This document shows positions 1-30,768 of a DNA stretch of 64,000 nucleotides, piece after piece. Numbering within the stretch: the first letter of the stretch is position 1; each line of letters opens with the position of its first letter. The stretch comes from a virus: positions 62,001-126,000 of the IMG/VR virus record IMGVR_UViG_3300009370_001221; one strand, given 5' to 3'. A model generated the notes under the pieces. The model was not told where the DNA came from, did no database searches, and saw only the letters and a program-made list of their open reading frames with translations. A program made the translations under genes and the position numbers.

Positions 1-412
1 TGGTTTCCACAATGTAGGACTTACCAACCCCTGGAGGGCCTGTTACGATCATTGCTCGGACATCACCGTCAATTGTGGCTTGGGTCATACTGCCCAAGAT
101 CTCAAATCGTTCCGAAATGCGAGACATTACTTCGTCATCACTCTCACCCGCTTCAACAGGGTTGCCAACCATCTTGGCGGCCGCGTCTTCCGCTACTGAC
201 TCACCCACACGCTCATAATGAAGTGGGGAATCGACCTTTACACGGATATTCCGCTGAGGGTAGGCAGGGTTGCCAGTTCCATCAACTGTGATGTACCCAC
301 CTTTTTTGCCCACTTTATAATCGCGGACCAATGGGAATACTACATCTTCAACTATCCCACCGGGTGCATCTGCGTGGTATCCCTTCGTGACTGAAACATA
401 TTCTTGTGACAT
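1..412 (-). CDS. P-loop (AAA-type) ATPase, N-terminal part
   Basis: Partial: only the first 137 residues are in the window and the gene runs off the left edge. The start ATG (410-412) follows a good ribosome site, AGGAG. Residues 125-132 read GPPGVGKS, a Walker A motif preceded by a hydrophobic strand (MIVT), so this is a nucleotide-binding ATPase. The first 90 residues are polar and not recognised. Walker B and sensor motifs would lie outside the window. Similar AAA-type ATPases occur in marine T4-like phages, but the exact role (helicase loader, MoxR-like or other) cannot be decided from this part. It is the last of three leftward genes transcribed from the control region near 1.1-1.3 kb. 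Confidence 0.8.
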   Translation of the reverse strand, partial: MSQEYVSVTKGYHADAPGGIVEDVVFPLVRDYKVGKKGGYITVDGTGNPAYPQRNIRVKVDSPLHYERVGESVAEDAAAKMVGNPVEAGESDDEVMSRISERFEILGSMTQATIDGDVRAMIVTGPPGVGKSYIVET

Positions 413-1335: not shown

Positions 1336-1914
1336 ATGAATCTCACTGAATCCCAAATCACGCAGAAATCCCAAGAATGCTTTGATTTTTGGTTTAGGGA
1401 TGTTGGGGTAGAAGGGCACAATCACGGATACATGTCTAAATCTTGTTTTATGTTTGAACACGTATTACACGGAATGCTAAAACCTGCCTACGGGAAATAT
1501 ATGCAAATGGGCACTAATTTTGGCATTAGTTTTGACATATTGTATAGGCAATATGGCGATCGCTGTATTGGGATAGATTTATGGAATCCTCTCAATCATC
1601 CAAATATTATTGAAAAGGACATATATGATTTAGAAAATATGAATCTTGGATTCTGCAATGTTGATGCAGGAGATTTTAGATGGACTCCCGAGTTAAGAAT
1701 GTTCTCTATAGACTACGCAATGCGTAATGTTGTACTACAAGGCGGAATAATATTTACTGCTGGTGGAGATTTTGTTAATGAATGTTTAGGATTAAACTTA
1801 TACGAATATCTCGAGGATCATGGATTTACAATAGCAAATTATCATGATTTTACCGATAAAGAACCATTACCTAACATAGGTATTGAAAACGAACTAATTG
1901 CTATTTCTTCTTAG
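1336..1914 (+). CDS. methyltransferase-like protein (degenerate class I fold)
   Basis: A 192-residue protein. Residues 55-66 (YMQMGTNFGISF) resemble SAM-binding motif I, and CIGIDLWNP (about 77-85) resembles the acidic motif II loop, followed by an IIEKDIYDLE strand. This fits a class I Rossmann methyltransferase, but motif I lacks the usual GxGxG and the protein may not bind SAM. The second half has a further strand (NVVLQGGIIFTAG) consistent with the fold. The gene runs opposite to the FkbM-type methyltransferase and their 3' ends overlap by 14 bases. It lacks a ribosome site; a late-type element lies five bases before the ATG. Substrate unknown. Confidence 0.65.
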   Translation: MNLTESQITQKSQECFDFWFRDVGVEGHNHGYMSKSCFMFEHVLHGMLKPAYGKYMQMGTNFGISFDILYRQYGDRCIGIDLWNPLNHPNIIEKDIYDLENMNLGFCNVDAGDFRWTPELRMFSIDYAMRNVVLQGGIIFTAGGDFVNECLGLNLYEYLEDHGFTIANYHDFTDKEPLPNIGIENELIAISS

Positions 1915-2776
1915 TTTTTTTCTTGGCTTTCTTTTTAGTTTTCTTCTTCGTAGTTTTCTTAAGAGTTTTCCACTTATCATTGACGCCTTTAACCTTTTTT
2001 AAATTAGTAATATCAATATCTATTTCTTTCGGATAAGCAAAAATATTAATTATTTGGCTTGTTGGATCATCAAATATACATTCTTTACTTTCAAAAAAGT
2101 TATCAGGATTAAAATTATTTGAAGGAACCCAATATGATTCATATCCAATATCTTTAATTAGTTGAAATAATTCTTTTGTATTCTCTTGTGCTTCACACAG
2201 AATAAAAGGACGTAAATTTGTAAATAACTGCTCACCAGTTTTTAACACATCTACTTCATTACCTTCTACATCCACTTTTACTAAATTACATTGTTCTAAT
2301 CCAATATCATCTAACTGAAATACAGCACATTGCTCGAAATTATCACCACCATCTTTTGCTGACGTTTTTAATGCTCCATGATTCATTTCATCATTCACTG
2401 TATTAATAGGCAAGTATAATGGTTTTTCCGTTCCGATAGCCGCTTTAAGATGCTGGACATTAAAAGCATCATTAAGAGTTAAATTAGTTACAAGAAAATA
2501 ATAATTTAAATTGCTCGGTTCAAATGCATAAATTTCACCTTCTTCTCCAACCATTTTACTATAAAATACAGAATGTAATCCAATATTAGCACCCACATCT
2601 ATTACTTTACCACCTGGTCTTAACAACTGAGATGCTAATGCAAGTTCTGTCTCAGCATATTCACCATAAGTATCTAAACTTTTACCAATTACTGTATCAC
2701 TTCTCAAATAAGCAAAATCACCATGCTTACACTGTTTTACAGTCACGTTTTTTGTATTAATTATCGGAAATCCCAT
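1901..2776 (-). CDS. FkbM-family methyltransferase with lysine-rich tail
   Basis: A 291-residue SAM-dependent methyltransferase of the FkbM type, a family that usually O-methylates sugars or small molecules. Motif I is VIDVGANIGLHS (58-69), followed by IYAFEPSN (motif II). A typical LVKVDVEGNE motif lies near 165-175, followed by VLKTGEQLF and the FILCEAQE strand. After about residue 265 the protein has a tail made almost only of lysine and threonine, unusual for the family and possibly a nucleic-acid or capsid-binding extension. The start has a good ribosome site (GAGGGT). It follows another methyltransferase gene by 2 bases, so the two are co-translated. Substrate unknown. Confidence 0.88.
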   Translation of the reverse strand: MGFPIINTKNVTVKQCKHGDFAYLRSDTVIGKSLDTYGEYAETELALASQLLRPGGKVIDVGANIGLHSVFYSKMVGEEGEIYAFEPSNLNYYFLVTNLTLNDAFNVQHLKAAIGTEKPLYLPINTVNDEMNHGALKTSAKDGGDNFEQCAVFQLDDIGLEQCNLVKVDVEGNEVDVLKTGEQLFTNLRPFILCEAQENTKELFQLIKDIGYESYWVPSNNFNPDNFFESKECIFDDPTSQIINIFAYPKEIDIDITNLKKVKGVNDKWKTLKKTTKKKTKKKAKKKTKKK

Positions 2777-2778
2777 AC

Positions 2779-3543
2779 TTATACCCTCATATTATAATCT
2801 GTCAACATACCATTCATCCATTTTAGTAACAATACAGTCTCGTCAAAATAGCCTTTTGATTTAATCATATCATCTGTACTTTCTGGCAATACTTTTCTAT
2901 CCATTAAGTCATACATATTTAACTCATATGGGTCATCTGGTGCTTTCCAATCTCTCATTGGTTTTACAACTGCACAAATGTCTCGATTATTCTCTAATTT
3001 TTGAAAATAACCACCTCTGCAATCCCACCCAGCCATTGCTAAATGCGTTATCAATATCGGAAGTGTATAAAAAACCCTATCAAACTGACTAAATTTAGTT
3101 TTTAAACGATTGTATTCCGTATCTAAAGACTGTGGAACTGTAAGGAATAGCAACGAATAATCAGTCATTACTCTTTTCATTTCTACTAATCCTAATACAG
3201 GATCTTTTAATTGCTGTAAAGTATGATGGCACCAACCTAAATTAAACTCATCATCTTTATAAGGCATTGATAATATATCACCTTGAATTCTATCAAACTT
3301 ATCAGTTTTTGAATCTATTAAATCTATGCCTGAAACTTTTGTATGATTAGCATATGGGTCCGCATCATCATATGGTGCTTGATCACACCACCATTGCGTA
3401 TTATATCCATCACCACAGCCAAAATCACAGACATGTAACATATTAGTAAATAAATCTTGTGATACAACTGTAAAAAATTTATTAGCGGAGTCTCTTAAGG
3501 AATCTGGATCTCCATAATATGCTCGTCGTATTTGATCATCCAT
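2779..3543 (-). CDS. class I SAM-dependent methyltransferase
   Basis: A 254-residue methyltransferase. Motif I is VCDFGCGDGYN (38-48). The acidic SGIDLID loop, GDILSMPYKDDEFN (post-II) and WCHHTLQQLKDPVLGLVEMKRVM match the Methyltransf_11-type order closely. The gene starts at the last base of the uvsY stop region (overlap at 3543) and ends 2 bases before the FkbM-type gene, so it belongs to one operon with uvsX-uvsY. The substrate is unknown; small molecule, glycan or protein are all possible. The C-terminal 90 residues are not recognised. Confidence 0.88.
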   Translation of the reverse strand: MDDQIRRAYYGDPDSLRDSANKFFTVVSQDLFTNMLHVCDFGCGDGYNTQWWCDQAPYDDADPYANHTKVSGIDLIDSKTDKFDRIQGDILSMPYKDDEFNLGWCHHTLQQLKDPVLGLVEMKRVMTDYSLLFLTVPQSLDTEYNRLKTKFSQFDRVFYTLPILITHLAMAGWDCRGGYFQKLENNRDICAVVKPMRDWKAPDDPYELNMYDLMDRKVLPESTDDMIKSKGYFDETVLLLKWMNGMLTDYNMRV

Positions 3544-13685: not shown

Positions 13686-13847
13686 TTAAGATTTCTTTTT
13701 CTTGGACTTATTGTAGGATGCCCAAGCAATGCGGTAAGCGGCGGGACAGTCTTTCTTCCCGCCGCATAATTTCTTTTTTAATGCTAATACTTGTTTTTCA
13801 CGACCCGGAGGTGCTTTTTCAACAAGTAATACTTCATTTATAAGCAT
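13686..13847 (-). CDS. 53-residue basic protein with CGGKKDCPAAYRIAWASYNK motif
   Basis: A short gene of 53 residues filling the gap between the 612-residue gene (5 bases upstream) and gp17 (24 bases downstream). It starts MLINEVLLVEKAPPGRE, has two cysteines in KLCGGKKDCPAAYRIAW and ends in a lysine run. The two cysteines, aromatic helix and basic tail suggest a folded, nucleic-acid- or capsid-associated peptide. The C-terminal motif looks like one found at the ends of other marine phage proteins, but I do not know a function. Tight packing in the operon supports it as real. Confidence 0.7.
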   Translation of the reverse strand: MLINEVLLVEKAPPGREKQVLALKKKLCGGKKDCPAAYRIAWASYNKSKKKKS

Positions 13848-16321: not shown

Positions 16322-17029
16322 TTATTTAGTTGTTTTTATAAAATATTTTATTTCTGATACGTTACTTTGTATATTTTTAAGTTGTAAATCTTGTATTTTA
16401 GTGCCTTTATTAGCCAAAAACTGATCTAAATAACCCATTATTTTTTTATCCCTATATATTGCTTGTTTATCAAAAATATAATAACCGCCAACTTCTAGTT
16501 TATCATATATTATATTAAACCATTTTTCATACTTACTGCCAATAGCATCAAAAACACATTGTACATTTTCTGGAGCCGCGTATGCTTGATTAAATAAATC
16601 TATATCTAATATTGTAATCATATTTTTATATGGTTCAGTATAATCATCAAATAATTCTGCCATAGTTGGAGAATTATAAAGATAACAATTTCGCAATTTA
16701 AGTAAATTTTCCTCTGAGGTACAATCATTTCCAAGTATTATTTTAGATATATTATTCCCCCAATCCTTACCAATTTTATTACCTTCTTTTAAATTTTTAA
16801 ATAAAGGATGTATTTTTTCTGTAATAAGTGACCAATCGTCTATAGTTACGATGTCATAATTTTTACCATGCTTAATTAACTGCCCTGCCCAATAACATGT
16901 AGATCTACCATAAGCACTACCAAGTTCCAATATAGTGCCTGACGATGGTAATTCTGGAATAATATATGTTATTCCTTCTGCACTTGTCGGAGGAAAATAT
17001 CCAGGTATTGTTTTCCAATAATCATTCAT
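16322..17029 (-). CDS. class I methyltransferase of the modification cassette
   Basis: A 235-residue SAM-dependent methyltransferase-like protein. Motif I is ILELGSAYGRST (33-44), IVTIDDWS is the acidic loop, ITILDIDLFNQAYAAPENV includes the post-motif strand, and KLEVGGYYIFDK is the late strand, as in the Methyltransf_24-type enzymes that act on sugars or small molecules. It overlaps the upstream radical SAM gene by 8 bases, so the two are translationally coupled and probably act in one pathway. Substrate unknown. Confidence 0.82.
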   Translation of the reverse strand: MNDYWKTIPGYFPPTSAEGITYIIPELPSSGTILELGSAYGRSTCYWAGQLIKHGKNYDIVTIDDWSLITEKIHPLFKNLKEGNKIGKDWGNNISKIILGNDCTSEENLLKLRNCYLYNSPTMAELFDDYTEPYKNMITILDIDLFNQAYAAPENVQCVFDAIGSKYEKWFNIIYDKLEVGGYYIFDKQAIYRDKKIMGYLDQFLANKGTKIQDLQLKNIQSNVSEIKYFIKTTK

Positions 17030-18227
17030 TTAAAAACTCTAATTCAGGAAATATATCTATAAATTTTACTTTTCTATATACGTCATGTCGTTTAATATCA
17101 TCCATTACACACGTTATATTCTCTCGTATCTTTATTTCATCATTAAATTCTATCATTGTTTTTATTAAACTAGTAGCAGTATCAAATAAAAATCTATTTT
17201 TTATATGCATTTGGGTTTCTTCAAGAAAACACTCCATAACTTCTTTAACATGCTGTTTCCATTTCATTGGCATATATCTATAATCAGAACTTGTACCATG
17301 ACCTGGCTCTGCCAAATAAACATTATGAAAGTTTTTCGTAATCCATCCTTTATTTTGCCAATGTGTTATTATCTCTGGCAATCTATGAAAATTAAACATA
17401 GAAACAACAGGTGAGTATTGCACACTAATGTTAGGATATTGTTTAACATAATCATTAGTCTCTACAATATTAGGCCATTTTTCACCATAACGTATCCATT
17501 CTGCACGTTGTTCTATCTCATCAATACTTGCGGCAAGTTCTACTTCTTTAAACTTTGATAATATGTCCCAAAAGTTTTTGCCCCTATATGTTACATTGGA
17601 CATATTACTATTCAATAATAGTTTAATATTCTTAGATAGGTCCATATCAATTATTGCTTCAAGCATAGTATAACTCTCTTCCATTATACTTGGTTCACCA
17701 CCAGACAAATATATTTGTTCTACTTTAGAAATGTTATCTATTAAACTGTTTAATAAATTTTCAGGTTTGTTTATTTTAGGAATAGGTGATACTTTTTTAC
17801 TAACTTTCTTATTAAAGGCCTCCCACTTACTACTAAAAATCGAGCCACAATAAAAACACATAAGATTACATTTATTAGAGAATCGTATATCAGTATAAAT
17901 TAAATTCATATCTGCTCTACCATCATTAGTATTTTCTAATAAACTAAAATGATGTTTAAAGTTTTTATTGGCCCACAAACGAGTGCTATGGAAGTTGCCT
18001 TTATCTTCTACTTTCCAACACTCAGAACACATATCAAGACGTTTATCAGCAAGGAAGTCTTTGCGTATGTCTCTCGATACATCACTATTCCAAATATCTT
18101 CTAAAGAGGATTCATTAACATTTCCCATTGCTGTGCCATGCATAGACATACAACAGGGATACACATTACCATCGGGCATTATTGCTACAGATACCCACGG
18201 CAATATGCAAATATTATTTCTTGTCAT
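17022..18227 (-). CDS. N-terminal twitch-domain radical SAM enzyme
   Basis: A 401-residue radical SAM protein in the unusual order twitch/SPASM-like domain first, core second. The N-terminus CILPWVSVAIMPDGNVYPCC, then GNVNESSLEDIWNS and MCSECWK (cysteines at about 7, 25, 26, 67, 70), would bind an auxiliary Fe-S cluster. The core has CNLMCFYC (120-127), binding the [4Fe-4S] cluster and SAM, and LSGGEPS (174-180). I recall an NCBI family for N-terminal-twitch radical SAM proteins with this order. The enzyme would do a radical reaction on a peptide, sugar or other substrate; which is unknown. It overlaps gp16 by 14 bases and the next methyltransferase by 8. Confidence 0.9.
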   Translation of the reverse strand: MTRNNICILPWVSVAIMPDGNVYPCCMSMHGTAMGNVNESSLEDIWNSDVSRDIRKDFLADKRLDMCSECWKVEDKGNFHSTRLWANKNFKHHFSLLENTNDGRADMNLIYTDIRFSNKCNLMCFYCGSIFSSKWEAFNKKVSKKVSPIPKINKPENLLNSLIDNISKVEQIYLSGGEPSIMEESYTMLEAIIDMDLSKNIKLLLNSNMSNVTYRGKNFWDILSKFKEVELAASIDEIEQRAEWIRYGEKWPNIVETNDYVKQYPNISVQYSPVVSMFNFHRLPEIITHWQNKGWITKNFHNVYLAEPGHGTSSDYRYMPMKWKQHVKEVMECFLEETQMHIKNRFLFDTATSLIKTMIEFNDEIKIRENITCVMDDIKRHDVYRKVKFIDIFPELEFLNE

Positions 18228-18702
18228 TATTTTGATTTAAGATTTGTTTTACTAACTCATTGCGATCTGCTACTATTGTTGCTTCTCCATCCATAGTATC
18301 ACTATATGGATCCAAGTCTTTACCTTGTTGATCAACCCGTTGTTTTTTAATCTGTAATTCGACCATACGCAACTTTTTATCTATTTTTGCTGTTCTGGCA
18401 TCTATAGCATTTTTCATCATAGTACCAGCAACTTCAAATATTTTACCTGCGTATCGTGCCTCTACATTCATACCCAAGTCCATCAAGTCATTAAACGTAT
18501 CTACAGATTTAGTAGCAATACTATCCATTTCTAAGTCATTTGCTTCCAAATCTCGCACAAGTGGCAAAGCACTGTCTATTTTATCTACATCAGACAGAAC
18601 TTTTTTAAGTTTTTTAGCATCAGTTTTTGCTATCTTACTATCTGGTTGTATTTCTTCAACAGGTGTTTCTAAATCAAACAATTCTTCTAATTTCTTTGTC
18701 AT
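18214..18702 (-). CDS. 16: terminase small subunit gp16
   Basis: A 162-residue protein from the ATG at 18700-18702 (MTKKLEELFDLETP). An upstream in-frame ATG at 18768 would overlap the previous gene by 62 bases and is unlikely. The order KVLSDVDKIDSALPLVRDLEANDLEMDSIATKSVDTFNDLMDLGMNVEAR, then a basic coiled-coil (KIDKKLRMVELQIKKQRVDQQ) and RNELVKQIL, is that of gp16 in marine T4-like phages, which recognises DNA and regulates gp17. A late-type GTTAAATA lies five bases before the ATG. Radical SAM genes flank it tightly on both sides (4-base gap upstream, 14-base overlap downstream). Confidence 0.9.
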   Translation of the reverse strand: MTKKLEELFDLETPVEEIQPDSKIAKTDAKKLKKVLSDVDKIDSALPLVRDLEANDLEMDSIATKSVDTFNDLMDLGMNVEARYAGKIFEVAGTMMKNAIDARTAKIDKKLRMVELQIKKQRVDQQGKDLDPYSDTMDGEATIVADRNELVKQILNQNNDKK

Positions 18703-18706
18703 AATA

Positions 18707-19627
18707 CTATTTAACTGATCCGCACTTCCTACGACATGTAAATCGGTATTCATTATTATCAAATTCATTTTTAATATCTAATGTTTCTATATCATATTCT
18801 TCTTTTGAGGTTCCTAAAATATCAAAATGACAACAAGGTGTTAATTTACCACCCACTGTTAAAAATAAACTATAATCTCCATTACCATTTACATTTATAT
18901 GCATACAATCTTCATGTTTAACATATGTATTATTTGCTTTATCCTTAGATTCTATAAAATCTGCTGGTTCTAAATAATATCTTTCTCCTGTTTTCCAATG
19001 ATATGCCGATGTGATATGCGGCTGTAATACAAAAAATTTCTTAAATCCTATATCTTTTGCTAGTTGCTTTGCTTCCTCAATGTGATGTTGATTGTGTTTA
19101 AAAACTAGATATTGCCATTCTGCAACACCACCTTCATCTATAAACGCTTTAGCATTATCAATTACTTTATTAAAATTAGTTCCTTGTCTATACATTGGAC
19201 TCGTGTCTGCTAACCCATCAATACCAAACACTACAGTATGAGAGTTAGTAAGATCTACACTACACTTTTTACCTAACTCTTGCCACCATTTTACTGAACG
19301 CAAACTGCCATTGGTTGCTATATTAATATCCCAACATCTATCTACTTTAAGAAATTGATGAAAAAATCTAGTTTGGGCCACTGCCTTGTCAATTAATTCA
19401 TTCAAATATTTGTATGCTATTGGATCGCCTAAATTACCGCACAAATGAATTGCTCTTAAATTAGGCAATTTACTTGCCTCTGCAACAATAGTGTCAGGTG
19501 ATAAATCTTGCAACACAAACCCGTCTGCAAGACCAAATCCATTATTATTACGTGGACAACCAGGGCAAGATGCATTACATCTTGTTGTAGGTTCAACATG
19601 TAATAATGTTGTTTTTTCAGTATACAT
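18707..19627 (-). CDS. radical SAM enzyme, downstream member of a tandem pair
   Basis: A 306-residue radical SAM protein. The cluster loop is TTRCNASCPGCPRNNNGFG (cysteines 17, 21, 24). Instead of the common GGEP motif it has HLCGNLGDP, and later NIATNGSLRS and VFGIDGLADTSPMYRQ, as expected for the SAM-binding barrel. The end carries extra cysteines (DCMHINVN, LTPCCHFD, FTCRRKCGS), a probable SPASM-type auxiliary cluster site, typical of peptide- or sugar-modifying members. It is a close paralogue of the next gene upstream, whose stop codon overlaps its start. It ends 4 bases before gp16. Confidence 0.88.
   Translation of the reverse strand: MYTEKTTLLHVEPTTRCNASCPGCPRNNNGFGLADGFVLQDLSPDTIVAEASKLPNLRAIHLCGNLGDPIAYKYLNELIDKAVAQTRFFHQFLKVDRCWDINIATNGSLRSVKWWQELGKKCSVDLTNSHTVVFGIDGLADTSPMYRQGTNFNKVIDNAKAFIDEGGVAEWQYLVFKHNQHHIEEAKQLAKDIGFKKFFVLQPHITSAYHWKTGERYYLEPADFIESKDKANNTYVKHEDCMHINVNGNGDYSLFLTVGGKLTPCCHFDILGTSKEEYDIETLDIKNEFDNNEYRFTCRRKCGSVK
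18708..18715 (-). promoter_or_regulatory. late-type promoter abutting gp16 ATG (GTTAAATA)
   Basis: Read leftward: GTTAAATA-GTATT-ATG, the same arrangement as at gp17, with 15 of 16 bases equal. The element overlaps the stop codon of the preceding radical SAM gene. No Shine-Dalgarno sequence precedes this ATG. Confidence 0.5.
19533..19606. repeat. 74-bp identical segment shared with 20540-20613
   Basis: Bases 19533-19606 and 20540-20613 are identical over 74 positions and encode the same 24-residue Fe-S cluster loop in the two adjacent radical SAM genes. Flanking sequence diverges. A second similar stretch is present at 19388-19455 versus 20395-20462, with a few differences. Identity at synonymous sites implies recent duplication or gene conversion. 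Confidence 0.9.
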
Positions 19628-20640
19628 TATTCAATTGATCCGCATATCGCCCGGCAAGTTAAACGATAGTTATTAGTACTAAATTCTTTTCTAATATCTA
19701 ATGTTTCTATATCATATTCTTCTTTATAAGGAAACCTATTAGACCAATGACAACATGGCATAACTTTTCCATCAATTGACATAAACATACTATATAAATT
19801 AGAATTATCTTGGTGTATATCTAAATGCATACAGTTCTCACTTTTAACATAAGTGTTATCTGTACGAAGTTCGTTTTCTGCCTCTGGATCTCCATATAAT
19901 TTATTTTCATGATACATATCATTAGGTCGTTGCACATCACCAAACACACTTCCTGGTTCTAAGTAATATTCTTCATTAGTTTTCCAATGAAATGCTTTAG
20001 TAAACCACGGTTGCCTTGTATAAAATCTAGTAAACCCTATACTTTCTGACAGTTGCCTTGCATCTTCAACTTGATGTTCATTATGCTTAAATATTAAAAA
20101 CTGCCATTCCGCAACCCCGCCACTATCTATAAAAGCTTTAGCATTATCTATTATTTTATTAAAATTAGTTGCTTGCCTATATATATGATTAGTATCTTTT
20201 AATCCATCAATACCAAATACAATTTTATGTAATCTATATAAATTTTTATTACATTTCTCACCTAATTCTTGCCACCATTTTACTGAACGTAAACTACCAT
20301 TTGTGTGTATATCAACAAACCAATGATCTTTATACTCACCTGTTGGGTAAAATTCATACCGTTTCCAAAAATATTTGTTTTGTTTTATAACTTGATCAAT
20401 TAATTCATTCAAATATTTGTATGCTATTGGATCTCCTAAATTACCACACAAATGTATTACTTTTAACTCAGTAAGTTTTCTTGCAACGTTAATTACAACA
20501 TTTGGATCTATATCACCAATTATTAAATCATCTCTCACCCCAAATCCATTATTATTACGTGGACAACCAGGGCAAGATGCATTACATCTTGTTGTAGGTT
20601 CAACATGTAATAAATTTACTTTGTCTGCATTAATGTACAT
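19627..20640 (-). CDS. radical SAM enzyme, upstream member of a tandem pair
   Basis: A 337-residue paralogue of the gene after it. Cysteines 19, 23 and 26 are in TTRCNASCPGCPR. HLCGNLGDPIAYKYLNELID, HTNGSLRSVKWWQELG and VFGIDGLKDTNHIYRQ follow in the same order. The C-terminal cysteines (ENCMHLDIH, MPCCHWSN, LTCRAICGS) again suggest an auxiliary cluster. It differs from its partner mainly by an insertion of about 25 residues near 225-260 (PGSVFGDVQRPNDMYHENKLYG region) and in mid-barrel. It overlaps the upstream gene by 11 bases. The pair may act on two related positions or substrates; the substrate is unknown. Confidence 0.88.
   Translation of the reverse strand: MYINADKVNLLHVEPTTRCNASCPGCPRNNNGFGVRDDLIIGDIDPNVVINVARKLTELKVIHLCGNLGDPIAYKYLNELIDQVIKQNKYFWKRYEFYPTGEYKDHWFVDIHTNGSLRSVKWWQELGEKCNKNLYRLHKIVFGIDGLKDTNHIYRQATNFNKIIDNAKAFIDSGGVAEWQFLIFKHNEHQVEDARQLSESIGFTRFYTRQPWFTKAFHWKTNEEYYLEPGSVFGDVQRPNDMYHENKLYGDPEAENELRTDNTYVKSENCMHLDIHQDNSNLYSMFMSIDGKVMPCCHWSNRFPYKEEYDIETLDIRKEFSTNNYRLTCRAICGSIE
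20540..20613. repeat. 74-bp identical segment, second copy
   Basis: This is the partner of 19533-19606. It encodes the cysteine loop of the upstream radical SAM paralogue, with identical bases at all 74 positions. Confidence 0.9.
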
Positions 20641-21424
20641 TTTTATACTTGTAATATAATTCGTTTGTTATCTCTACACAATATTCTTTCAACTTACCTG
20701 TATCAAAATTTATTGTTGTAAAATATGTATCTAATATTGGTACAATATGTTCAATATAAAAATCTATATGAAATGAAGGCATTGGAGACATGAACCTCGG
20801 ATCTTCAAATATGCGATACTGATAATGATCACTTTCTTTATATAAATCATATATTGGTGTATGTATTAAAAACTTATCCCATTTAATATTACTCCGCAAA
20901 TGTTCTAATTCTTCCGTATTGTTTATAAATTCAAAATCAAATGGATATCCATAAAAGAAATAATAAGGAATATTATGTAATTCACATAAATTTTGCACAT
21001 CCAATATTTGTTCTAAATCTCTTATATGATCATATACTTTAGATTGTATATATAACTCTTTGATTATATTGTCATCACTATGACTACTTGCCCAAAACCC
21101 TCTATTCTCTACAACATTTGCTTTCATATCTACAATAAAATTTCTTAAATTAAATGTTTTTATTTGCTTTAGAACTTCAGGATCCTCAACAAACATATCT
21201 AATTTACCAATACTAGTCCATTGTATTATTACTACTAATTCTTTGTCTAAATTCTCTAATATATGTTTTTTACATACTCGTCCTATAAACTCGTTCCCTA
21301 CAGCAGGTCCTCCCATAGACAAATGTTTTAATTTATGTGTAAGTGTAGGAAAATGTACCCAAATTGGATAATGTTTAAATTCTCGTTGACTTATTCCGCA
21401 ACCACTAGTTAGCAAATATTGCAT
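20630..21424 (-). CDS. SGNH-hydrolase-like protein
   Basis: A 264-residue protein. The N-terminus YLLTSGCGISQREF has the place and form of the block I serine loop of SGNH/GDSL hydrolases. HLSMGGPAVGNEFIGRVCKKHI corresponds to the Gly/Asn blocks, and the following strand ELVVIIQWTSIGKLDMF matches phage SGNH-like proteins I have seen. A late histidine (SFHIDFY, near 220) could be the catalytic His. Such enzymes are often acetyl-esterases or acyltransferases on glycans. It overlaps radical SAM genes at both ends (11 and 20 bases), so it belongs to the same pathway. Assignment is moderate; substrate unknown. Confidence 0.65.
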   Translation of the reverse strand: MQYLLTSGCGISQREFKHYPIWVHFPTLTHKLKHLSMGGPAVGNEFIGRVCKKHILENLDKELVVIIQWTSIGKLDMFVEDPEVLKQIKTFNLRNFIVDMKANVVENRGFWASSHSDDNIIKELYIQSKVYDHIRDLEQILDVQNLCELHNIPYYFFYGYPFDFEFINNTEELEHLRSNIKWDKFLIHTPIYDLYKESDHYQYRIFEDPRFMSPMPSFHIDFYIEHIVPILDTYFTTINFDTGKLKEYCVEITNELYYKYKNVH

Positions 21425-22298
21425 TATATTGCTTCCGTGTTATAACATTTCCTTGTCCATAATGATCATATTCTATTTCATCTGGATTACCACTACACGC
21501 CTTACATACAACAGGATTTGGCTTTTTAATATTATTAACAAACTCATCTAGATTATCATCATAACTTAATCCTGTATTAAGGTATGGTTGCCATACTTCT
21601 GAATCTCGTATATTAAACAATGCTAAAGTATCATCTAAATTAGCAACGGGAGGACATTTGTATAATTTATTTTTATATAGTGTAGGAGAATTTGGAGCAC
21701 CGCATACTTTATGGGCGCCAATAAAATCTTCATTATTAGCAGGTACTAATTTAGGTCCTTCTCCCATAAATGGACGCCTAAACTCACCAAACAAATTCAT
21801 ATGCCATTTTATATCAGCATTCCTATCTTTTAATTTAATAAGTTTATCTGGTGGATCAAACGGAGTTGCTGTTACTTTCCAATCAGAATGTTTTAAGAAA
21901 AATTTAACATTGTTAATATATTCCTCTGAAGGTGGATAAAAATGTAAACTAGTTTGTATTAAAACATTTTCCAATTCTCTACACCAATTATATAAATCTG
22001 GACGCACAAAGTAATGAAATCCATTAGTAATAAGTTTTACCCTAGCAGTTGGAAAATATTCTCTTATACCAAACATCCATTGTTTTAAATCTTTATTAAG
22101 CAGAGGTTCACCACCCATCAAATTAACTTCCTGTATAGTAAAACGTTGACTCCACTCTTTAAACCATTGCTCACCATCACTCCAAGGAACATGACCTTTA
22201 CGATTATAATTAGACATTACTATACAACCCCTACAAGACAAACTACAAGCATATTGCACCATTACATCTAAGTATTTTAAATCATATTTGTTTGTCAT
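21405..22298 (-). CDS. radical SAM enzyme with canonical GGEP motif
   Basis: A 297-residue radical SAM protein. YACSLSCRGCIVMS gives the CxxxCxxC cluster loop (18, 22, 25), VNLMGGEPLLNKDL (59-72) is the SAM-binding GGEP motif, and LITNGFHYF follows. C-terminal cysteines (HKVCGAP, LYKCPPVAN, VVCKACSGNP) suggest an auxiliary cluster. It is not closely related to the tandem pair and may do a different step. It overlaps the genes on both sides (20 and 17 bases), pointing to coupled translation. Substrate unknown. Confidence 0.9.
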   Translation of the reverse strand: MTNKYDLKYLDVMVQYACSLSCRGCIVMSNYNRKGHVPWSDGEQWFKEWSQRFTIQEVNLMGGEPLLNKDLKQWMFGIREYFPTARVKLITNGFHYFVRPDLYNWCRELENVLIQTSLHFYPPSEEYINNVKFFLKHSDWKVTATPFDPPDKLIKLKDRNADIKWHMNLFGEFRRPFMGEGPKLVPANNEDFIGAHKVCGAPNSPTLYKNKLYKCPPVANLDDTLALFNIRDSEVWQPYLNTGLSYDDNLDEFVNNIKKPNPVVCKACSGNPDEIEYDHYGQGNVITRKQYNAIFAN

Positions 22299-23028
22299 TT
22301 TCTATTTTAACTCGAAACTCTTGATGTAACTCATCTTGCATAGTTATGTCACAATGTTGACTTATTTGCCTCAATACTCTACTTTGTGATGGCACGTATT
22401 GTTGACGAGCATCTAAATCATCATAATTTATATTTAAATTTCTATCAACAACAGAATGATAATTATACTCTGCTTTATCCCATTCTTTTTCTAATTTTTT
22501 TCTATTTTTATCTGTTAATTCTTGTTTACGTGAGGCAAGTATGATATCTATAGTATTCATATTATAATGTGTATTGATATACCACGATTTGTCATTATTC
22601 GTAGTTAACTGTAACAACATACCAAAAAATTCTAACTGTGTTGGCTGTGGCTGATACCAAACTTTACTTTTAATATTGCGTAATATTTGCTTATGGCCTT
22701 CTTTAGAAGCAGGATATGTTATATTAATAAATTTATATCTTTTAAAATACTTCCATATGTCATCTTCTCTATAATGCGTAGGAACTACAACATATTTGTC
22801 TTTATCTAATGTGTTTATATCTTTATGATCATATAATCTTTCTGGCTTAAAATCCATACGCAATAAGTTTTGATTAAATACGTCATCAACTTTATACCTA
22901 TCACCTATTTTACGCCTATCTAAAGTATTACACTCGTCTGATTTGCTTATAATATAGGACAAGAATTCTCCACCTGCACCGTGTGGATAACATAAAAATA
23001 TAAAATTTAATTCAGGTAAGACGAACAC
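22282..23028 (-). CDS. P-loop protein, possibly sulfotransferase-like
   Basis: A 248-residue protein starting at GTG (23026-23028), the only good start near the front. The first strand and loop, FIFLCYPHGAGGEFLSYIISK (about 9-29), resemble the phosphate-binding loop of sulfotransferases, which bind PAPS there. VVVPTHYREDD and KFINITYPASKEGHK fit the next strands of that fold. Conservation is weak and other P-loop enzymes are possible. The gene begins just after gp4 and overlaps the next radical SAM gene by 17 bases, making it the first gene of the modification cassette. Confidence 0.5.
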   Translation of the reverse strand: MFVLPELNFIFLCYPHGAGGEFLSYIISKSDECNTLDRRKIGDRYKVDDVFNQNLLRMDFKPERLYDHKDINTLDKDKYVVVPTHYREDDIWKYFKRYKFINITYPASKEGHKQILRNIKSKVWYQPQPTQLEFFGMLLQLTTNNDKSWYINTHYNMNTIDIILASRKQELTDKNRKKLEKEWDKAEYNYHSVVDRNLNINYDDLDARQQYVPSQSRVLRQISQHCDITMQDELHQEFRVKIENDKQI

Positions 23029-23039
23029 ACTAATACTTA

Positions 23040-23477
23040 TTAGCGTTTCTTACCTTGATGAAAAATATCGTCCTCGGTTACTATTCTAAAACGTATACCT
23101 TGACGTTGACACCATTTATTTGCAGCTTCCCACTTTGCATGGTTCATTGCTACGTGTGCTTGATTGTACTTACTTTTACCGGCTCTCTCTATTAATGTTT
23201 GATTTTTAGGTTTTATCTCTATTAATTCTGCCATACGTTTACCAGACTTATCATTATACACAATAAAAAAATCTGGAACATATTGTGTCTGTTTACCTGT
23301 TAATGGATTTCTATAAGGTATTTTAATTGCTTCACTTGCCCATTCTGTTATGCTAGGATGATTATCACAAAATTGCATAAACGCAAATTCCCATCCACTA
23401 CGATATTTTGGATTTTTTGTTCCTACATATTTTTTATTGTTTTTAGGAAGGAAACGACCTTGGGCAAATTTAGCCAT
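23040..23477 (-). CDS. 4: head completion protein gp4
   Basis: A 145-residue homologue of T4 gp4 (150), needed to finish DNA-filled heads before tail joining. The opening AKFAQGRFLPKNNKKYVG, YRSGWEFAFMQFCDNHP, EWASEAIKIPYRNPLTGKQTQYVPDFF and AELIEIKPK follow T4 gp4 almost block for block. Residues P68-D69 and E87-x-K89 form a PD-(D/E)xK nuclease-type active site. It stands between the 130-residue gene (3 bases) and the modification cassette. Confidence 0.95.
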   Translation of the reverse strand: MAKFAQGRFLPKNNKKYVGTKNPKYRSGWEFAFMQFCDNHPSITEWASEAIKIPYRNPLTGKQTQYVPDFFIVYNDKSGKRMAELIEIKPKNQTLIERAGKSKYNQAHVAMNHAKWEAANKWCQRQGIRFRIVTEDDIFHQGKKR

Positions 23478-25555: not shown

Positions 25556-25563
25556 TATTTATC
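25556..25563 (-). promoter_or_regulatory. late promoter of gp19 (GATAAATA)
   Basis: GATAAATA, read leftward, 7 of 8 matches to the T4 late consensus. It is 22 bases upstream of the gp19 ATG, with a good ribosome site in between, and just after the gp18 hairpin. Confidence 0.7.
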
Positions 25564-29058: not shown

Positions 29059-29415
29059 ATGAAACATGCTAAAAGACCACTCTGTCGTTGTGGTATGCGT
29101 CCAGTTGCTGTAAATTATTATAAAAAAGGAATACCACATTACAGAACACAGTGTGATAAATGCATACGACAAGATAAAAAATTAGAAACAACATCACACA
29201 CAGAATGGAAAGCAAGCGGATATACTAAAAAAACTCAATGCGAAAGATGTGGTTTTAAACCACAACATCATATACAACTAGATGTATATCATCAAGATGG
29301 AAATAGAAAAAACAACAATTGGAAAAATTTAAGAACAGTGTGTGCTAATTGCCATAGAATGTTATATATCTCAGGAAAAGGATGGAAGCAAGGAGATTTA
29401 ATACCAGATTTTTAA
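29059..29415 (+). CDS. HNH-like zinc-finger protein
   Basis: A 118-residue protein with two zinc-binding parts. The first has CRCGMRP and TQCDKCIRQ (cysteines about 9, 11, 32, 35); the second has TQCERCGFKPQ and TVCANCHRML (61, 64, 95, 98) flanking YHQDGNRKNNNWKNL, an HNH-nuclease-like core. The whole protein matches a small family common in marine T4-like phages, where it is annotated as HNH endonuclease or hypothetical. It could be a homing-type nuclease or a DNA-binding protein. It is divergent from gp18 and 15 bases ahead of the fifth radical SAM gene. Confidence 0.82.
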   Translation: MKHAKRPLCRCGMRPVAVNYYKKGIPHYRTQCDKCIRQDKKLETTSHTEWKASGYTKKTQCERCGFKPQHHIQLDVYHQDGNRKNNNWKNLRTVCANCHRMLYISGKGWKQGDLIPDF

Positions 29416-29417
29416 AA

Positions 29418-29425
29418 GGTAAATA
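29418..29425 (+). promoter_or_regulatory. late-type element abutting start codon (GGTAAATA)
   Basis: GGTAAATA-TTATT-ATG, in the 15-base gap between the HNH-like gene and the radical SAM gene. It has the same five-base spacing as the other such sites. An AAGG just before it might instead serve as a weak ribosome site. Confidence 0.35.
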
Positions 29426-29430
29426 TTATT

Positions 29431-30768
29431 ATGACAAACGGACCAAATTATTTTATGCATCCATTACAGTCGAATTTACAATGTCGTCTTAAATGGTCAC
29501 ATAGCACTATATTTCTAACCACTAACACTACTGCAAGTTGCCACAGAGTTGACCAAGATAGAATACCAGATAACTTTGATTTTCATAACACTGAAGAAAA
29601 AGTTCTCGCAAGACAAAAAATGCTCAGGGATGAATGGCCAGGCAACGGCTGTGAACATTGTAAAGTTATAGAAGATGCTGGCGGAATGAGCGATAGAATG
29701 TTGCATTCAAAGTGGCCACATGGTCCAGAATCTGCAAAGGAATTAAAAGATAATCCTACTCAAGTCGACAATATTACCCCTACTGAATTAGAATTATTTT
29801 TTAGTACTAATTGCCAAATGTCTTGTACATATTGTGGGCAATATTTTAGCACTACATGGGAAGCTGAAAATAAGAAATTTGGACATATAGATGAATATCT
29901 GTATGGATTTGCAACAGATTTGGATCCAAGAAACTGGAAATCCAACTATACTAGTAACGTGTTAAATGTAAAAGAAAAACTATATGTTTGGCTTGATGAA
30001 AATATACAACATTTAAGAAACTTATATATATTAGGCGGCGAGCCCTTTACTCAACCCGAAACCATCGAGTTATTAGATTTCTTATCTACTAAAAAATGTC
30101 CTGAATTAATATTAAATATTAATAGCAATCTTTCATTAGAACCAAAAAAAGTATCTCGCATGATGGACAAAATGCAGGCCTTATGTGATAACGGTAATTT
30201 AAGACAATTTAAACTTATCGCTAGTTTAGATTGTTGGGGTAAGGAAGCAGAATATGTTAGATCTGGGTTAAATCTTGAATGGTGGGAGACTAATTTTAAT
30301 TATTATATAGATAATACTAATATGAATCCAAGCATTAACATGTGTTGGATGCCATTAACAACTTTTACAATGGCAGATCTCATCGATAAAGTTAATACAT
30401 GGCAAGAGCAATTTTTTAAACAAAATAGAACCGAAAAAAGAAAAAGAGAGAAAATATATAGAGTAGTAAACATTTCATTGATGCAAGCAGGTGGACGACC
30501 TTGTATACACCCTTCTATATTTGGACCACAAATTCTTGATTGGGGTTATACTGAAGCTATTAATAGAATAGAAACATTTGGTGAACAAACAATAATAAAC
30601 ACTAAAGAATACTGGGAAGGCATTGCTAAAAGTATTAAAGCATCTACTCCCGATAAGGAATTACAAAAACAACTACACCGTTATCTTTCCGAACTAGACC
30701 GACGTCGCGGCACTAATTATCCAGAACTTTTTCCGGTAGTTTATGACGCTATACATTCAGATTCTTAA
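29431..30768 (+). CDS. N-terminal twitch-domain radical SAM enzyme, second copy
   Basis: A 445-residue radical SAM protein with the same domain order as the enzyme at 17022-18227. The N-terminal twitch-like part has cysteines in NLQCRLKWSHSTIFLTTNT, ASCHRVD and NGCEHCKV (about 18, 37, 74, 77). The core has CQMSCTYCGQYFSTTWEAENKKFG (starting at 128) and YILGGEPFTQPE (199-210). The SSKWEAFNKK/STTWEAENKK stretch after the cysteine loop is shared by both. It is remote from the cassette and rightward, facing the kinase gene with a 20-base overlap of 3' ends. Substrate unknown. Confidence 0.9.
   Translation: MTNGPNYFMHPLQSNLQCRLKWSHSTIFLTTNTTASCHRVDQDRIPDNFDFHNTEEKVLARQKMLRDEWPGNGCEHCKVIEDAGGMSDRMLHSKWPHGPESAKELKDNPTQVDNITPTELELFFSTNCQMSCTYCGQYFSTTWEAENKKFGHIDEYLYGFATDLDPRNWKSNYTSNVLNVKEKLYVWLDENIQHLRNLYILGGEPFTQPETIELLDFLSTKKCPELILNINSNLSLEPKKVSRMMDKMQALCDNGNLRQFKLIASLDCWGKEAEYVRSGLNLEWWETNFNYYIDNTNMNPSINMCWMPLTTFTMADLIDKVNTWQEQFFKQNRTEKRKREKIYRVVNISLMQAGGRPCIHPSIFGPQILDWGYTEAINRIETFGEQTIINTKEYWEGIAKSIKASTPDKELQKQLHRYLSELDRRRGTNYPELFPVVYDAIHSDS

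Follow-up and report, generated by a model that had tools for sequence, protein, structure and literature searches.

What are four radical S-adenosylmethionine (SAM) enzymes doing among the head and terminase genes of a large T4-like marine phage? Radical SAM enzymes encoded by viruses abound in the sea; we know of no assigned substrate for the viral families considered here. The locus lies in a 64,000-nucleotide stretch (bases 62,001–126,000 of the 235,363-base virus record IMGVR_UViG_3300009370_001221), which we call the window. An earlier note on this DNA described seven genes at 16.3–23.0 kb, four of them encoding radical SAM enzymes, as one late-expressed pathway that wraps around gp16 and abuts gp4. 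All seven open reading frames (ORFs) are present on the minus strand, and their coordinates bear out the six overlapping junctions of 1 to 20 bases (8, 14, 1, 11, 20, and 17 bases, from low to high position). Compared across relatives, this cassette resolves into a fixed core of four genes, encoding a P-loop-like protein, the radical SAM enzyme RSc, an SGNH-like protein, and the radical SAM enzyme RSa, plus extras. The genes and their flanks are these:

23040–23477, minus strand: gp4-like head closure protein, upstream flank (phrog_218, E 9.5e-44; 50% identical to PA5oct)
22282–23028, minus strand: P-loop-like protein, core gene 1 (248 amino acids, GTG start)
21405–22298, minus strand: RSc, the second core gene, a radical SAM enzyme with CxxxCxxC, GGEP, and auxiliary cysteines 199, 215, 265, and 268
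20630–21424, minus strand: SGNH-like protein, core gene 3 (weak hhalign match to a phage GDSL-like family)
19627–20640, minus strand: RSa, the fourth core gene and a variable allele, a radical SAM enzyme with CNASCPGC and auxiliary cysteines (PCC and C-terminal)
18707–19627, minus strand: RSb, a radical SAM enzyme that duplicates RSa in tandem (54–60% identical)
18214–18702, minus strand: gp16-like small terminase subunit, corrected start (phrog_445), a flanking backbone gene outside the cassette
17022–18227, minus strand: accessory radical SAM enzyme of the N-twitch type, with SPASM at the N-terminus (NF033640)
16322–17029, minus strand: methyltransferase-like protein, accessory (Methyltransf_24, E 0.015, below the cut-off)

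Relatives were gathered by protein search from IMG/VR, and the contigs spanning gp4 to gp16 number 20 by name; they represent three clades and carry 8 different sequences of the SGNH gene. The order gp4, P-loop-like, RSc, SGNH-like, RSa, with or without RSb, and then gp16 is found in every one of the 20; where a contig's single RSa-type gene scored slightly better to RSb, it was counted at the RSa position. RSb occurs as a second copy only in the window's own species and in contig L025. Only the window's clade has the N-twitch gene behind gp16, and L042, L046, L060, and L067 lack it at this site; the methyltransferase gene is restricted to the window's own species and missing from all other lineages, so that both are lineage-specific additions. 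Because these three genes are lineage-limited, the seven-gene pathway reduces to four genes, which are indeed co-inherited in a fixed order between gp4 and gp16 throughout this group of large T4-like marine phages.

The cysteine residues tell the same story of maintenance. Cysteine loops and auxiliary cysteines are intact in all complete alleles, and the cluster cysteines are invariant, save for unread residues at one contig end. The earlier note had named random, independent occurrence in relatives and broken cysteine loops as the patterns that would speak against it; since the core is inherited together and its cysteines are intact, neither was seen. We compared the window's genes with those of eight relatives by the Nei-Gojobori method. 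The ratio of nonsynonymous to synonymous divergence (dN/dS) is 0.07–0.17 for RSc, 0.07–0.15 for the SGNH-like gene, and 0.10–0.21 for the P-loop-like gene, beside 0.07–0.10 for TerL and 0.08–0.14 for gp4 in the backbone, the ratios being rough for the distant clades, where synonymous divergence (dS) nears saturation. These three core genes are therefore under purifying selection near that on TerL.

RSa, at a dN/dS of 0.25–0.42, is the variable step, differing between close relatives and at times duplicated. Its synonymous divergence from L024 is 0.87, far above the 0.17–0.31 of the adjoining SGNH-like, RSc, and P-loop-like genes, a sign of allele replacement in this fast-changing gene. The RSa-type family is widespread, occurring in at least 577 viral stretches. 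In L026 (10785–11867), a glycine-rich insert, GRGGGGGGGSNDGYGGTGGQGGG, separates the radical SAM core of RSa from the auxiliary cysteine region, and other RSa alleles vary in length at this site.

Both the cluster loop and the barrel profile that define the radical SAM superfamily are found in all four cassette enzymes, as the earlier note had read from their CxxxCxxC loops. Pfam Radical_SAM (PF04055) matches the four at E 1.7e-9 (RSc) to 6.8e-6 (RSa, which also matches phrog_21308); RSa and RSb score just under the Pfam cut-off, with the CxxxCxxC motif invariant in both. The N-twitch ORF belongs to NF033640 (E 2.8e-92; 309.9 bits against a cut-off of 170), a family for which we know of no substrate, and it is the only one of the four matched by the SPASM profile, in its N-terminal domain. 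Auxiliary cysteines are conserved in RSa, RSb, and RSc, yet none of these three has a SPASM profile match in Pfam. Matches to QueE or 7-deazaguanine DNA modification were at best weak and generic (E 5.6e-4 or worse). One further radical SAM gene of the window lies past the sheath gene:

29431–30768, plus strand: fifth radical SAM gene, N-twitch-like, outside the core (profile matches)

This 445-residue protein follows a 118-residue cysteine-rich ORF that reads as HNH-endonuclease-like, the pair occupying 29059–30768 next to the sheath gene on the strand opposite the structural genes.

How did the core come to lie where it does? The backbone of the window runs sheath gp18, tube gp19, a second tube protein, one ORF without assignment, gp4, the cassette, gp16, further structural genes, and TerL. 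No cultured member of the lineage itself was present in the isolate collection searched; the closest isolates by TerL, at 52% identity, are the PA5oct group. Pseudomonas phage PA5oct (NC_071039) has the same order (sheath, tube, second tube, structural, gp4, gp16, structural, structural, TerL), and by BLASTP its gp4 and gp16 are 50% and 40% identical to those of the window, while the structural protein that comes next is 35% identical across 108 residues. In PA5oct, however, gp4 and gp16 are adjacent with no cassette between them, and its genome has no Radical_SAM match. This empty site makes it probable that the core entered the gp4–gp16 junction by insertion, in the ancestor of these large T4-like marine phages. 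The same comparison helps to correct one gene call. The earlier note placed the set correctly beside gp4 and identified gp16 correctly (PHROG matches it to the T4-type small terminase at E 8e-4), but its gp16 start was wrong: because relatives begin at MTKKLEEL, and the PA5oct homologue uses the same methionine, the start is 18702 and not 18768, and gp16 therefore does not overlap RSb.

Promoter-like motifs suggest when the core would be expressed. Of 30 neighboring genes on the minus strand, 13 have the T4-late-promoter-like 7-mer [ACT]TAAATA in the 80 bases upstream (p = 1.7e-12 against a background of 3.1%); none of the seven genes in the cassette has it. The two sites that matter here are these:

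25556–25562, minus strand: ATAAATA upstream of gp19, the closest such site upstream of the core (consensus match only)
18708–18714, minus strand: TTAAATA immediately ahead of the corrected start of gp16, within the 3′ end of RSb (consensus match only)

Because the 7-mers precede the neighbors and not the cassette genes, transcription from the gp19 and gp16 sites likely reads on through the cassette. Together with the overlapping ORFs, this suggests that the core would be read along with the late structural genes, and consensus matches upstream of the neighboring genes make the late expression proposed in the earlier note plausible.

The two partners of the radical SAM enzymes in the core are more enigmatic. 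The SGNH-like protein matches a phage GDSL-like family in pairwise hhalign (E 1.4e-4, 53% probability), a family that itself occurs beside radical SAM genes, and matches DUF6071 at E 0.045. In all clades GCG replaces GxS, and DPRF, DARY, or DPRY stands in place of the block V DxxH, although the underlying alignment is weak. The label SGNH-hydrolase-like is thus weakly supported, and the catalytic serine and histidine appear replaced: with GCG for GxS and no DxxH, the protein is probably not a classical Ser/His hydrolase. The P-loop-like protein has the invariant motif CYPHG(A/T/G)GGEFLSYI, and its P-loop/sulfotransferase-like label stands on the single motif CYPHGAGGEFLSYII. No family match was found in Pfam, PDB, or PHROG, and no sulfotransferase profile, which would show loops that bind 3′-phosphoadenosine-5′-phosphosulfate (PAPS), matched in Pfam, NCBIfam, or PDB. 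Homology of the P-loop-like protein to the sulfotransferase-like protein of a second island in the genome, and to an L142 protein with a common GAGGEF motif, was considered and rejected for want of similarity. For both proteins, PDB profile searches gave nothing useful, and searches of isolate phages found no relatives even at E 5; AlphaFold models from 7-sequence alignments had a predicted local distance difference test score (pLDDT) of 35–36 and were left out of the fold search. The SGNH-like protein had no cellular relatives in the genome collection at the sensitivity used.

What, then, does the core modify? The neighborhoods of its relatives lean toward a glycan over a peptide. Among 74 more distant RSa loci, 57 have at least two radical SAM families, and 58 have a glycosyltransferase-like or sugar-tailoring cluster within the stretch retrieved around them. 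In Pelagibacter phage Mosig (MT647606), an RSa-type enzyme likewise stands among modification enzymes (carbamoyltransferase, sugar aminotransferase, and nitroreductase), but it is only 24.7% identical over 56% of RSa and no SGNH/P-loop core was seen with it. An RSc relative (24%) in Synechococcus phage S-SCSM2R (PQ898602) lies in a sugar-modification cluster alongside glycosyltransferases and an inosamine amidinotransferase and, unlike the window's RSc, outside the head genes. Further RSc relatives adjoin carbamoyltransferase-like ORFs (AG-345-D19) or have an amidinotransferase-like ORF nearby (L227).

Glycosyltransferase or nucleotide-sugar enzymes are absent from the core itself and occur elsewhere in the same genome, which has 13 Radical_SAM matches, four of them in the cassette and a fifth at 29431–30768. 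The second island (L011 891–14049, genome ~172.9–186 kb) contains SGNH-like genes, a carbamoyltransferase (E 3e-48), a radical SAM/SPASM gene, Gfo/Idh (1.9e-9), a DegT aminotransferase (1.5e-97), an epimerase-like gene, a weak sulfotransferase match (E 0.022), and a 1,073-residue repeat protein that reads as glycosyltransferase-like; carbamoyltransferase and DegT genes are also present in three other cassette-bearing records. At L010 3757–16960 (genome ~155.8–169 kb), a run of at least five N-twitch-type radical SAM ORFs and one RSa-type ORF lies behind a tail-fibre-like gene and glycosyltransferase-like ORFs.

Directly behind the L010 run, 16942–19365 holds a glutamine synthetase by Pfam and genes that read as purC-like and purE-like. 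An RSa-type gene at L009 7483–10677 (genome ~34.5–37.7 kb) adjoins a gene that reads like a tailspike. A conserved small protein of 73–92 residues (LQxEAxRV...WYxAVxxWY...PSKxGPG) stands beside radical SAM genes in 11 distant ORF copies (L104 1083–1361, L119, L142, L144, and others) and is a candidate partner of those distant islands; in the window's genome it has a marginal match at most (window 56–265, E 0.002). On the minus strand at 1901–3543 of the window, tandem FkbM-type and class I methyltransferase genes possibly belong to another modification cluster.

We tentatively read the cassette as a late-expressed phage tailoring module for a glycan or glycoconjugate. The core enzymes would modify, by radical chemistry and by group transfer, a sugar, a cyclitol, or a glycoconjugate that the phage's other sugar-island genes may produce, and the tailored product would decorate the virion or the infected-cell surface. 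A number of points weigh against this. None of the core genes matches a profile for an enzyme acting on sugars; both the P-loop label and the SGNH label are weak, and the catalytic serine and histidine of the SGNH-like protein seem absent. Several neighbor labels (amidinotransferase-like, glycosyltransferase-like) are weak matches or readings. Because radical SAM genes are so common in these genomes (8–19 matches in each related record), their co-presence with sugar genes is unspecific, and a place among head genes could fit the modification of a virion protein as well.

That last possibility, in which the core acts directly on a virion or packaging protein, for instance by epimerizing, methylating, or cross-linking a head or tail protein of the same operon, we consider unlikely, although the fixed gp4–gp16 position and the overlapping ORFs speak for it. 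Weak matches of RSc and RSa to solved radical SAM structures include the peptide epimerase YydG as well as NifB, and the N-twitch protein weakly resembles peptide maturases; these resemblances, however, are limited to the generic radical SAM core. If RSa acted on a structural protein, the two might covary. Two pairs hinted at this, but over 21 pairs the Spearman correlation of RSa divergence is 0.08 with gp19, −0.03 with gp18, and −0.14 with the second tube protein; the highest is 0.70 with gp4, the pairs being non-independent. The earlier note had seen no precursor peptide, and when a small conserved partner was sought in relatives, none was co-conserved: no small ORF tracks the cassette's distribution within the 8–32 kb examined, distant locations being outside the search, and a 53-residue ORF at 13686–13847 went undetected in L026 and L031, both of which bear the core. 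The arrangement of a ribosomally synthesized and post-translationally modified peptide (RiPP) system, with precursor and peptide-recognition element near the maturase, was not found at the cassette. Relatives outside the clade, moreover, lie in the sugar-type neighborhoods described above.

Less probable still is a diffusible small molecule or an alteration of host metabolism, such as a superinfection or anti-competitor compound or a cofactor. The Mosig and S-SCSM2R relatives do lie in natural-product-like clusters (nitroreductase, aminotransferase, carbamoyltransferase, and 2-oxoglutarate oxygenases), but the core has neither a known complete pathway nor an exporter, and it sits in late structural genes rather than early host-takeover genes. 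Selfish or decaying cargo in a permissive gap is very improbable and largely refuted: the cassette genes are G+C-poor (27–32%, against 34–39% for most structural genes) and accessory genes come and go between lineages, but gp4 and gp16 are themselves G+C-poor (33–34%), dN/dS is near that of TerL, and the cysteine motifs and gene order hold in three clades.

To what extent has such a system been described before? The earlier note knew of none, and for the fixed core this stands: we found no description of it in the open-access literature, most subscription papers lying outside that search. Its parts are more familiar, from the radical SAM-rich genomes and cassettes discussed here to the many stretches with RSa-type genes. 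A passage of PMC5332604 reports 12 radical SAM genes in the T4-like marine viral genome TARA_ERS488813_N000010, which resembles the window's record in belonging to a large T4-like marine phage and in carrying roughly a dozen such genes. That passage ties radical SAM genes to iron-sulfur (Fe-S) assembly genes (ATC, IscU), whereas none was found in the 235 kb record, and it describes no conserved head-operon core. Pelagimyophages carry radical SAM cassettes with glycosyltransferases in a host-recognition cluster (PMC7029224). These variable additions near tail fibre and lipopolysaccharide (LPS)-type genes resemble the other islands of the window's genome; the core, by contrast, is conserved between gp4 and gp16 and has SGNH-like and P-loop-like partners. 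As for NF033640, only the accessory N-twitch ORF belongs to that twitch family, not the core.

A more specific proposal, which we regard as doubtful, is that the core is a vertically inherited and so far undescribed pathway of two radical SAM enzymes, an SGNH-like protein with degenerate catalytic residues, and a P-loop-like protein of a new kind, a pathway that would modify virions, on glycan or protein, in late assembly, with a hypervariable radical SAM enzyme setting the chemical variant. The combination of a fixed core, an empty-site relative, and one fast-changing enzyme provides a small, testable unit for the targets of radical SAM enzymes, and lets one ask whether virions bear radical-installed modifications.

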